Shown here in pieces: positions 32,805 through 35,632 of a DNA stretch of 64,000 nt. The notes beneath the pieces were generated by a model. That model had not been told where the DNA came from and did no database searches. It saw only the letters and a program-made list of their open reading frames with translations. The translations under genes and the position numbers were made by a program. Numbering within the stretch: the stretch's first letter is position 1; each line of letters begins with the position of its first letter. This DNA comes from Altererythrobacter aquiaggeris. Its GTDB lineage: Bacteria > Pseudomonadota > Alphaproteobacteria > Sphingomonadales > Sphingomonadaceae. The DNA lies in assembly GCF_037154015.1 (NCBI RefSeq), contig NZ_JBANRL010000001.1, positions 248,001 to 312,000 of the forward strand. The letters are read 5' to 3'.

Positions 32805-33928
32805 TTCAGCAAGTGTCCCGACCGGTCACGCTTGGTTGCAAGATAGCGGACATTATGCGGATTGGCGGGCAGTTCGTGCGCGACCCGCCGGCTGATGGTG
32901 ACGCCCGCCTGTTCGAGCGCGGCAACCTTGCGCGGATTGTTGGTCATCAACTGCACCTCGCGCACACCCAGTAACTCCAGCATTTTTGCGGCCGTGGCAA
33001 AATCGCGAGATTCGTCGGGCAGCCCCAGACGCTGGTTGGCATCGACTGTGTCGAAGCCCTGGTCCTGCAAGCGATAGGCGCGCAATTTGTTTACGAGGCC
33101 GATGCCGCGGCCTTCCTGGCGCATATATAGCAGCACACCCCAGCCGCCCTTGGCCGCCTCGTCCGCCATCGCTGCGAGCGCCGCATCAAGCTGCGGCCCG
33201 CAGTCGCATTTGAGGCTGCCGAGGATGTCGCCGGTCAGGCATTCGGAATGCAGCCGGACCAGAGGTACCTTATCCGAATTTTGCGCGCCGATGATCAGCG
33301 CCACATGCTCGCGGGTGTCGTCGGCGCTGCGGAATGCGACGATTTGCGCGTCGTCGCTGGCTGCCACCGGCAATTTTGCGCGTGTCGCAATCGTGAGGTT
33401 ATGACTGTCGGCCCATGCAGCCAGATCGGAAACGCAAACCGGCTGCGGTTCGCCCGGATTATCGGGATCAACCATGAATGCCGGCAATATCCCGGCCACA
33501 CGGGCCAGTTCCAAAGCGGTTTCGGCCTGTTCGCGCCAGTCCAGCGTCTCTGCCAGAAAGGGTCCTTTGAGCGGAGCGGTCAAATCCATCGCGGGATCGG
33601 CGATAGCGCGGGCCGCAGCCAGAGTGAATTTCTCCGGCCCGCAAATCAGCACGGGCGAATGCGGCTGCGCGGCCTCGCGCTGGTTTGCCAGTTTCAGCGT
33701 GATGGCTCTGGCGCAGGAAATCAGCAAAGCGCCAGAACGCGCATCCCCCGCGATACCGGTTTCAACCGGCAGCAGAACAGGCCCGCCATCAACCATTATC
33801 GGCCAGCCATGCCGCAGCGCGTCGATTGCCTGCGCAACCCGCCGTGACGGAGAGGGGCCGCGCCCCGTCAGAGATCGAACTCGGTGATGAGCGGGACATG
33901 GTCGGACGGCTTTTCCCAGTCGCGGCAA
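32801..33928 (-). CDS. ribA: GTP cyclohydrolase II (riboflavin synthesis), start uncertain
   Basis: Opens GTP to the first pyrimidine intermediate of riboflavin and releases formate. The C-terminal 200 residues are a complete cyclohydrolase domain: VRLHSECLTGDILGSLKCDCG supplies three zinc cysteines, and YMRQEGRGIGLVNKLRAY and TNNPRKVAALEQAGV follow. The N-terminal 150 residues look like a degenerate RibB-like region. The start is unclear. Conserved sequence seems to begin near SPSRRVAQAID, but the nearest standard starts are TTG at 33928 (used here) and GTG at 33982, both deep inside xth and without a ribosome site. A CTG at 33871 overlaps the xth stop as CTGA. Confidence 0.88.
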   Translation of the reverse strand: MPRLGKAVRPCPAHHRVRSLTGRGPSPSRRVAQAIDALRHGWPIMVDGGPVLLPVETGIAGDARSGALLISCARAITLKLANQREAAQPHSPVLICGPEKFTLAAARAIADPAMDLTAPLKGPFLAETLDWREQAETALELARVAGILPAFMVDPDNPGEPQPVCVSDLAAWADSHNLTIATRAKLPVAASDDAQIVAFRSADDTREHVALIIGAQNSDKVPLVRLHSECLTGDILGSLKCDCGPQLDAALAAMADEAAKGGWGVLLYMRQEGRGIGLVNKLRAYRLQDQGFDTVDANQRLGLPDESRDFATAAKMLELLGVREVQLMTNNPRKVAALEQAGVTISRRVAHELPANPHNVRYLATKRDRSGHLLK

Positions 33929-34662
33929 TCTTCGCGCACGCGGTGGCCGGTCGCCTTCGCCGCCAGATCCGGACTGGCCCACATATGATCGAGCCTGCGG
34001 CCACGGTCATTCACGCGCCAATCCTTCGAACGGTATGACCACCAGCTGAAATACCGTTCCGGATCGCGAATGTGCTCGCGGCCGATATCGACCCAGCCAT
34101 GTGCGTCTTTGAACCGCTGCAAGGTTTCAACCTCCAACGGCGTGTGGCTGACCACCTTGAGCAGTTCCTTATGGCCCCAGACATCGCTGGGAAGCGGTGC
34201 GATATTGAAATCGCCCACGATCAGCGTCGGTTTGTCGATCACACCTGCCCAGTCGGTCATGCGCTGGAGAAAATCGAGCTTTTGGCCGAATTTCGCATTT
34301 TGGTCACGATCGGGAATATCGCCGCCTGCAGGCACATAGACGTTTTCGATCACGGTGCCTTTGCCGGGCCCGGTCAGTTCCACCCCGACATGGCGCGCCT
34401 CGCCATTGTCCTGCCAGTCATGACGCGAATATTCTTTCAGCGGAATGCGGCTGACGGTGGCGACGCCGTGATAACCTTTTTGCCCGTGCACAGCGTGATA
34501 GGTATAACCCAGATCATTGAATGCATCGAACGGGAAGGTTTCCTCGACTGTCTTTATTTCCTGCAAACACAGCACATCGGGCGCCTCCTGAGCAAGGAAA
34601 CGCGCCACAATCGGCATACGCAGGCGGACCGAATTGATATTCCAGGATGCAACTGAGATCAT
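33868..34662 (-). CDS. xth: Exodeoxyribonuclease III (AP endonuclease)
   Basis: A Mg-dependent AP endonuclease and 3'-5' exonuclease of base excision repair. The 264 residues from MISVASWNINSVR show every family block: LCLQEIK with the metal-binding Glu, GYHGVATVSR, the catalytic VGDFNIAP, and SDHVPL near the end with the catalytic Asp-His. A longer in-frame start at 34716 would run into the terminator of the upstream unit and is rejected. Downstream it overlaps ribA. Confidence 0.96.
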   Translation of the reverse strand: MISVASWNINSVRLRMPIVARFLAQEAPDVLCLQEIKTVEETFPFDAFNDLGYTYHAVHGQKGYHGVATVSRIPLKEYSRHDWQDNGEARHVGVELTGPGKGTVIENVYVPAGGDIPDRDQNAKFGQKLDFLQRMTDWAGVIDKPTLIVGDFNIAPLPSDVWGHKELLKVVSHTPLEVETLQRFKDAHGWVDIGREHIRDPERYFSWWSYRSKDWRVNDRGRRLDHMWASPDLAAKATGHRVREDCRDWEKPSDHVPLITEFDL

Positions 34663-34691
34663 ACTGCCAGCTTTAGGTGCGTTGCGCGCAC

Positions 34692-34812
34692 AAAAAAACC
34701 CCTGTCCCGGGGGCATTGGGACAGGAGTTCCTTCTAGCGTTCGTCACGCTGTCACAAGGTGGGTATCATTGAGAGGGTAACAGGGGGGAACCCGACTCAA
34801 CCCGCCTTGTGA
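34692..34812 (-). ncRNA. Putative structured small RNA with its own terminator
   Basis: Between lolA and xth the minus strand can fold into three hairpins in a row. The first is a 13-bp stem with one mismatch (34800-34812 with 34752-34764), extended inward by GGGT/ACCC around a C-rich loop. The second is AGCGT-loop-ACGCT (34736-34750). The third is an 11-bp terminator stem (34718-34728 with 34698-34708) followed by seven T (34692-34698). A TATTAT hexamer at 34817-34822 would place a start near 34811, exactly at the first stem; no good -35 is visible. It has no plausible ORF. I do not recognise a known RNA family. It could also be a processed lolA 3' UTR. Confidence 0.6.
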
Positions 34813-34901
34813 GATAATAATATTCGATGCGGTCTTTCGGGGGAATGAACAGCTTCGGTATTCTGCCCCGCGCGGCAAACGGTGTATCGCTTGCCCGTTC
34901 G

Positions 34902-35564
34902 TCAGTTGCGACGAGACGACGTGCGCGGGTCAGTAAAGGTGAATGCCCGGTCCGAAACCGACATCCCGTAACGATGGTTGCGCAAACGGACCGTGGTGCG
35001 CTGGTTCTGCGAATCGAGCGCGACCCAGCTTACCAGTTCCAGACCGCCGGGCGCCTTTGCCTTTTTAACGAACAGCAGCGTGATGACGCCGAATTCAGGT
35101 TTCTTGGGATCTTTCACCTCGACACTGATGACATCGGGGTTGCCCGTCGCCTTGAGCTTGCCGTATTTTTTTACATCGCGATTGGGGTCAAGCAGGGCGC
35201 CCAGCGGCGAGTTTTGGATCGGCCAGCGCTGGACCTGCTTCACTTCATAATCGACCAGCGTCAGCGATTTTCCGTTCGACACGACGAGCAGGGGTATACC
35301 CTTGTCATACTGGAAGCGAATCCTGCCCGGGCGCTTGAGCGTCAACACGCCGCCGATGGTTTGTCCGCGGCGGTCGGTCTGCGTAAAATCGGCCTGCAAT
35401 GTAGAGATACCCCGCAAGGCGGTAACCGCTTTGTCGAGGTCACCGGCCGCGTATGCGGAAACCGGTTGTGCCGGGATCAGCAGGGCTGCGGGCGCGGCAA
35501 TTGCCGTCATGCCGAACATGGCGGCATAAAGCGGCTTCGAAAAAATTCTGGTCAAACTGTTCAT
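34902..35564 (-). CDS. lolA: Outer-membrane lipoprotein carrier protein LolA
   Basis: A periplasmic chaperone that carries lipoproteins from the LolCDE complex to the outer membrane. The 220 residues include a signal peptide (hydrophobic MFGMTAIAAPAALLIPA ending near VSAYA) and the LolA half-barrel pattern: STLQADFTQTDRRG, GVLTLKRPGRIRFQYD, then SLTLVDYEVKQVQRWPI. The start MNSLTRIF at 35564 is preferred to a longer one at 35600. It is consistent with the several predicted lipoproteins in this window, which it would serve. Confidence 0.93.
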   Translation of the reverse strand: MNSLTRIFSKPLYAAMFGMTAIAAPAALLIPAQPVSAYAAGDLDKAVTALRGISTLQADFTQTDRRGQTIGGVLTLKRPGRIRFQYDKGIPLLVVSNGKSLTLVDYEVKQVQRWPIQNSPLGALLDPNRDVKKYGKLKATGNPDVISVEVKDPKKPEFGVITLLFVKKAKAPGGLELVSWVALDSQNQRTTVRLRNHRYGMSVSDRAFTFTDPRTSSRRN

Positions 35565-35632
35565 GCTCCGTGATTTAGGGTCGAAGCCTTGAACTGTCAC
35601 TGAACCGGGTGCGTTCCCGCCGTTCAGGAGAA

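Follow-up and report, generated by a model that had tools for sequence, protein, structure and literature searches.

We analyzed a 64,000-nucleotide stretch of the Altererythrobacter aquiaggeris genome (hereafter the window), in which lolA and xth lie on the same strand with a short gap between them. The gap carries a predicted small RNA (sRNA) of three hairpins, preceded by a promoter-like box and a putative -10 element (Table 1). A first-pass annotation had proposed a small RNA here from the letters of the window, describing a 13-bp stem, a 5-bp hairpin, and a terminator, with C-rich loops that might act on ribosome-binding sites.

Table 1. Features of the sRNA locus, in window coordinates
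Feature	Coordinates	Strand	Basis
Predicted sRNA transcript, ~119 nt	34692..34810	-	Fold z -5.85, homologues, covariation
Hairpin 1	34752..34812	-	Fold; two-sided changes in 8/8 lower-stem pairs (66 sequences)
Exposed C-rich loop CCCCCCTGTT, proposed pairing seed	34779..34788	-	Loop conservation; unpaired in 150/153
Hairpin 2, AGCGTGACGAACGCT, stem and loop nearly invariant	34736..34750	-	GCGTGACGAACGC in 19/20 low-scoring matches
Intrinsic terminator, loop AATGCCCCC and 7 T	34692..34734	-	Fold; two-sided changes in 8/13 pairs
Promoter box, upstream half, TTCAT	34845..34849	-	TTCA, with GMMAK-type half-site 11 bases and TA 27 bases farther along, in 151/164 loci
Promoter box, downstream half, GAAAG	34834..34838	-	160 sites: GACAG 57, GAAAG 53, GCAAG 36, other 14
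Putative -10 element TATTAT	34817..34822	-	T 156/160, A 157/160 at constant distance
lolA, constant upstream neighbor	34902..35600	-	Longest frame, start codon uncertain; Pfam LolA E 4e-24 (34902-35561)
xth (exodeoxyribonuclease III), usual downstream neighbor	33868..34662	-	NCBIfam TIGR00633, 160.2 bits vs cut-off 99.05

Read on the minus strand from 34812 to 34692, the segment folds at -58.4 kcal/mol, against a mean of -36.5 (standard deviation, 3.7; z = -5.85) for 200 dinucleotide shuffles, none of which was as stable as the real sequence. The plus strand of the same segment is also stable (z = -3.90), but it has no T run at its end. Hairpin 1 is made up of eight pairs, a C.A mismatch, four more pairs, and an inner helix that closes the C-rich loop. 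The stem and loop of the first-pass annotation are thus present, but the stem is not the continuous 13 bp described, since the mismatch divides it into 8 + 4 pairs. The second hairpin, AGCGUGACGAACGCU, has five pairs in the window fold. This hairpin, the C-rich loops, and the terminator stem with seven T all appear in the minus-strand fold as annotated, and terminator prediction places a minus-strand terminator at 34714-34698.

The RNA is widespread in the window's family. A blastn search with 166 bases found matches in 104 of 199 sampled family genomes and 52 of 96 genera, at one copy per matching genome with a single exception. In genome G009, two equal-scoring copies lie on the same contig (G009:C2:14701-14824 and 2573860-2573983), one 15 kb from the contig start and the other ~84 kb from its end, through either duplication or assembly overlap. 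An alignment of 30 blastn homologues (A1) yielded a covariance model, R1, that matched 216 of the 296 genomes sampled from the order (E <= 0.01), 212 of them in the window's family; the E-values of the four outside it are weak (4.8e-6 to 0.006). Among the 20 listed of the 80 genomes with no R1 match, at least one (G005) is from the window's family. Searched across the class, R1 matched 16 of 385 genomes, five from the window's family and 11 others (12 loci). We rejected these 12 loci as homologues: all lack C4TGTT at the match position, GCGTGACGAACGC occurs in none of them, and the eleven that were inspected resemble terminators or other G+C-rich repeats. A tmRNA search, used as a positive control, succeeded in 10 of 10.

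A pattern scan of named genomes found at least 119 matching stretches. Among the 80 matches listed, 78 bear names that we take to be sphingomonad (Sphingomonas, Sphingopyxis, Novosphingobium, Erythrobacter, Blastomonas, etc.), and two are titled only "Proteobacteria bacterium" and "uncultured bacterium." Viral contigs yielded no copies and plasmids one, on a 270-kb replicon of Qipengyuania citrea (L474, NZ_CP098495.1). That replicon, although filed as a plasmid, holds pabB, arfB, rpmG, lolA, the sRNA, xth, and ribA, a neighborhood that looks as if a chromosomal piece had moved there.

Stem conservation and compensatory changes were two of the three points on which the first-pass annotation could have been refuted, and both came out in its favor. 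By both blastn and the covariance model, the stems are kept far beyond close relatives, and compensatory changes are many. In A1, two-sided changes occur in 10 of 29 pairs, filling 45 cells where shuffled sequences gave 8.2 and slid partners at most 10. A second alignment, A2, of 66 diverse sequences aligned to model R2, shows them in 23 of 32 pairs (396 cells versus 126 shuffled and at most 100 slid) with 91.7% of cells paired, although an alignment made in this way leans toward the structure. The clearest covariation is in the lower stem of hairpin 1, where it extends to every pair in A2. RNAalifold inner pairs that used the C-tract were discarded and replaced by GGG/CCC closing pairs. Structure, conservation, and covariation are in this sense read directly from the sequences.

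To describe individual loci, we started from 205, of which 182 have the element and 164 are distinct (165 by a looser rule). The folding set comprises 153 of the 164; four with no regex promoter and seven with no regex terminator were left out. The minimum-energy fold has exactly three hairpin loops in 148 of the 153. Three stretches are nearly unchanging: the C5-6UGUU loop, the hairpin GCGUGACGAACGC, and the terminator loop GCCCC(C). Loci L087-L205 were picked by a pattern containing C5TGTTRCC and GCGTGACGAACGC, and the filter that defines the 164 loci again requires C4TGTT and GCGTGACGAACGC; we therefore take loop-letter conservation from 20 low-scoring model matches, which were not selected for loop letters, although the covariance model rewards them. 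C5TGTT is present in all 20 and the hairpin 2 motif in all but one, while the promoter regex is found in only 14. A divergent copy before xth in genome G053 (L226) keeps the CCCCCTGTTGCCC stretch and has CGCGGAACCTCCGCG in the place of the second hairpin, not GCGTGACGAACGC.

The C-tract of loop 1 has a mean unpaired probability of 0.89 (at least 0.5 in 150 of 153 homologues), and the C-loop of the terminator is free of pairing in 143 of 152. In the single minimum-energy fold, however, loop 1 is often interrupted by a lone pair, and just 64 of 153 homologues have C5TGTT within one continuous hairpin loop. Compared with shuffles, the 5' hairpin alone has a median z of -2.36, with values of -2 or lower in 100 and -1 or lower in 147 of 153. 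Hairpin 2 keeps its letters in both stem and loop, which sets it apart from hairpin 1 and from the greater part of the terminator stem. Because the letters of hairpin 2 and the C loops are conserved, the functional parts would appear to be the loops, two of them C-rich and one GACGA. A conserved peptide in the sRNA is unlikely, since a closed frame of at least 20 codons occurs in just 35 of 153 folded homologues.

What might these loops do? One answer is that hairpin 2 and the loops bind a protein rather than mRNAs, so that the RNA acts as a sponge. The conservation of hairpin 2 in stem and loop, with three of its five pairs unchanged in 66/66 sequences of A2, would suit a protein site, but it would suit an antisense seed equally. 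The other most conserved loop is the C-tract, which is reported as the pairing element of the Caulobacter sRNA GsrN; other alphaproteobacterial sRNAs are reported to pair through a CU-rich form of it. We regard a sponge as quite unlikely and favor an RNA that pairs with mRNAs.

The neighborhood of the RNA is also conserved, although not evenly on both sides. The first-pass annotation placed the RNA between lolA and xth, which is true in the window, but across the 164 loci lolA is the constant partner and xth the less constant one. lolA lies directly upstream in 159 loci, on the strand of the RNA in every one of them and often 75-150 bases from the C-tract; four more loci do not have enough flank, and one shows no lolA. 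xth follows the RNA on its strand in 135 loci, at 1.1-1.9 kb in 17 of these and within ~0.5 kb in the others; it is not found within the flank covered in 27, and the flank is too short in two. In Q. citrea, the gene that separates the RNA from xth encodes an alkaline phosphatase on the opposite strand. Six-frame translation of nine loci with displaced xth showed, in seven, an opposite-strand frame that by eye looks like this protein.

This pattern bears on whether the RNA could be a leader or attenuator of xth, a conditional terminator with loops that sense something. In 118 of 164 loci, xth shares the strand of the RNA and starts within ~0.5 kb of the terminator, as a leader would require. 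However, the RNA is kept in the 17 loci where xth is distant and in Q. citrea, where an opposite-strand alkaline phosphatase gene stands between the two; for these reasons it is not simply a leader of xth. It tracks lolA instead, and we consider the leader explanation very improbable. In the window, a mechanical start codon within the terminator lengthens the xth frame by 18 codons (34716-34663, minus strand), so annotators could call xth too long there.

The constant presence of lolA brings up a different origin, in which a lolA read-through transcript is cut and the three-hairpin piece is either an sRNA derived from the 3' untranslated region or merely a stable 3' end. The position and distance of lolA given above fit this. 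A simple sigma-70 scan of 34500-35000 found no minus-strand promoter, only two plus-strand matches. Comparison of homologues upstream of the sRNA shows a box that differs from the simple sigma-70 pattern, TTCA-N7-GMMAK-N11-TA, present in 151 of 164 distinct loci. Box sites were located in 160 of the 164 upstream regions by TTCA and a GMMAG-like half-site; TA was not required. The box occupies the place expected of a -35 element, as in PhoB/OmpR-type promoters. The TATTAT hexamer was correctly placed in the first-pass annotation, and it puts the predicted start, itself derived from the conserved -10 position, at ~34810, near the foot of hairpin 1.

An evenly spaced box with TA between lolA and the RNA in so many loci argues against processing from lolA mRNA, as do the recurrence of the same box before other genes, a fold that begins at about the predicted promoter start, and loop letters conserved beyond the needs of a plain 3' end. 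We therefore judge an origin from the lolA 3' untranslated region to be rather unlikely. The preferred reading, a stand-alone sRNA, has the anatomy of a trans-acting sRNA as far as sequence can tell: a putative promoter of its own, an exposed seed, and an intrinsic terminator with a U tail. Altogether, family-wide conservation, covariation, the upstream promoter-like box, and the terminator back the three-hairpin small RNA of the first-pass annotation, and its identity as a small RNA is strongly supported on sequence grounds. That it is transcribed, and by which kind of activator, we infer.

We also looked for the promoter box elsewhere. In 0.98 Mb of sequence (119 loci and the window), the strict box occurs 72 times at the sRNA and nowhere else, and versions with other spacers occur once or twice. 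A looser box in 30 relatives has 19 sites, versus 8 control hits: 6 at the sRNA, 3 before lolC/E-like permeases, 2 before a signal-peptide cyclophilin, and 8 elsewhere (13 of the 19 were read, five more were assigned to the sRNA by position, and one is unread). A stricter box in 119 family genomes has 28 sites, versus 0 hits for control patterns; the 27 that were read comprise 20 at the sRNA (18 by regex and 2 by eye), 2 at the cyclophilin, and 5 others.

We scored the regions upstream of cyclophilin orthologues (in 31 of 40 genomes; 30 loci) and lolC orthologues (in 39 of 40; 30 loci) with a matrix built from the sRNA promoters. Cyclophilin regions reach 16.5 or more in 15 of 30 loci, comprising the 14 best matches (L261-L274, with L272 from the window's genome) and one weaker match with no TA. 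lolC regions reach 15 or more in 6 of 30 (L291, L292, L296, L298, L300, and L303). Random 260-base windows have a 95th percentile below 1 and a 99th of 18.7 for the cyclophilin loci and 6.2 for the lolC loci, but they were drawn from the same loci with the sites included, which makes the p values too large. In the window's genus (L293, L294, and L295), the region before lolC reads TTCAT-N6-TTCAC-N11-TA, which scores low with TTCAC in place of GMMAG; TTCAT-N6-TTCAC looks like a direct repeat and may reveal which half-site the activator really recognizes.

The linkage to lolA and the common box are properties of the genomes themselves, and a box common to the sRNA, the cyclophilin, and, in some genera, lolC points to a small regulon. 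Two candidate regulators were considered and set aside by eye: neither the published CenR motif (TGA-N8-TGA) nor the published ChvI motifs (TTGC-N3-GCAA and GCC-N8-GCC) match the box. One report describes CenKR as not found in Sphingomonadales, a clade reported to have sphingolipids instead of LPS (PMC9275681).

We think it probable, with reasonable though not high confidence, that this is a stand-alone trans-acting sRNA of ~119 nt that has its own promoter, depends on an envelope-linked activator, and acts by pairing through its C-loop. The sRNA would be transcribed from its promoter in the gap behind lolA and end at its own terminator. An activator, most likely of the OmpR/PhoB type, would turn the sRNA on by binding TTCAT-N6-GMMAG, immediately before the -10 element. 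It would also switch on a few genes of envelope biogenesis, namely that of the periplasmic cyclophilin and, in some members of the family, lolC. A role in envelope biogenesis is suggested because the box is common to lolC and the cyclophilin and because lolA is the neighbor; it is thus probably an envelope-linked regulatory RNA. The sRNA would expose two C-rich loops, the first of which, C5-6UGUU, would pair with G-rich stretches at or near the translation starts of its targets and so alter the translation or stability of those mRNAs, while hairpin 2, with its nearly fixed letters, probably provides either another pairing site or a place for a protein to bind. How the pairing works, and in which direction regulation goes, we infer.

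The first-pass annotation had suggested that the C-rich loops pair with ribosome-binding sites, as anti-Shine-Dalgarno sRNAs do. The loops are indeed C-rich, with the C-tract largely unpaired, but the ribosome-like CCUCC is absent from the hairpin loops of all 153 homologues, and we rejected a strict anti-Shine-Dalgarno mode. Because CCCCCC cannot pair perfectly with GGAGG, a general role of this kind is less likely than action on selected G-tract targets. It is tempting to look for such targets directly, and we searched 11 family genomes for AACAGGGG-N2-13-ATG sites, taking 80 from eight genomes (about nine in ten of the sites listed for these), of which 54 have an open frame of at least 45 codons. 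Among these frames, six protein pairs recur, of which four are confined to a single genus and two span genera, a count made without a proper control; the two cross-genus proteins are presumably Sel1-like and DUF1206-like. Every one of the 40 genomes searched, 16 of them from other families, has many such sites (7 to 59 per genome). With the pattern equally common in other families, these sites establish no target of the sRNA.

A broader and more tentative idea, to which we would give somewhat less than even weight, is that the RNA acts post-transcriptionally within an as yet undescribed sphingomonad envelope-biogenesis regulon, in which the TTCAT-N6-GMMAG activator would drive lipoprotein transport, periplasmic folding, and the sRNA together. 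If this is true, the sRNA tunes envelope mRNAs through its C-loop, the job done by sigma-E and Cpx sRNAs in enterobacteria.

The RNA appears to be new. The first-pass annotation had recommended a search of Rfam, and no Rfam 15 family matches the window at its cut-off. Among the open-access papers listed by our literature searches, we found no description of this RNA. In the available text of two Zymomonas sRNA papers (PMC7064620 and PMC6970203), the words exodeoxyribonuclease and CCCCC are absent, as is lolA in PMC6970203. We call it a new RNA family, putatively of the bacterial trans-acting sRNA class, undescribed in the searched literature despite its presence in 216 of the 296 genomes sampled across the order. 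The near-invariant loops and the common box offer testable handles on envelope control in sphingomonads, and the covariance model with its 66 aligned sequences would let annotators name the RNA.

How does the RNA compare with known alphaproteobacterial sRNAs? Low-threshold Rfam scans of the window segment and 19 homologue loci gave nothing above the 35.2 bits of alpha-r14, and a match to RF02883 on the window (14.5 bits) was dismissed as noise. Alpha-r14/NfeR1 (RF02344) is alike in its ~120 nt, three hairpins, and pyrimidine-rich loops. NfeR1 is reported to carry CCUCCUCCC in all three loops, which are used at the ntrB translation start (PMC10746234). The RNA described here has no CCUCCUCCC loops (none of the 153 homologues has CCTCC within a hairpin loop), and its hairpin 2 loop is GACGA. 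Membership in alpha-r14 was rejected: there is no match on the window, the best score is 35.2 bits (L016) against a gathering threshold of 58.8, and 0 of 59 genomes exceed the cut-off. Loci elsewhere in genomes of the family and order (L031-L040) give weak alpha-r14 scores of up to 32.8 bits and may represent separate C-rich or CU-rich sRNAs.

Alpha-r8 and its relatives SisA-D and MmgR are reported to have a common UUUCCUCCCU core (PMC12559287). This core is one base off the UUUCCCCCCU found here. However, it is single-stranded behind a weak hairpin, whereas UUUCCCCCCU or a close variant lies in the strong hairpin 1 loop of our RNA, which also has two further hairpins. ChvR of Caulobacter crescentus, compared by description only, resembles our proposal in being envelope-linked: it is reported to be regulated by an envelope two-component system and to use two stem-loops to repress a TonB-dependent receptor mRNA (PMC6237742). 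It is described there as specific to C. crescentus and is 84 nt long beside recF, versus ~119 nt behind lolA here.

GsrN of C. crescentus is reported to have a 5' loop with six tandem C, through which it pairs with G-rich parts of mRNAs (PMC5869019). The same source describes gsrN as driven by the general stress sigma factor, with predicted homologues typically near ecfG/phyR (C. crescentus excepted), and reports no apparent gsrN-like gene in Erythrobacter litoralis (PMC5869019). Our RNA likewise has a 5' hairpin that exposes about six C. It differs in its lolA/xth neighbors and its TTCA-N7-GMMAK-N11-TA box, in contrast to the EcfG promoter and ecfG/phyR site of GsrN. The EcfG consensus is GGAAC. 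Judged by analogy, pairing between C-tract and G-tract in the manner of GsrN fits better than anti-Shine-Dalgarno action.
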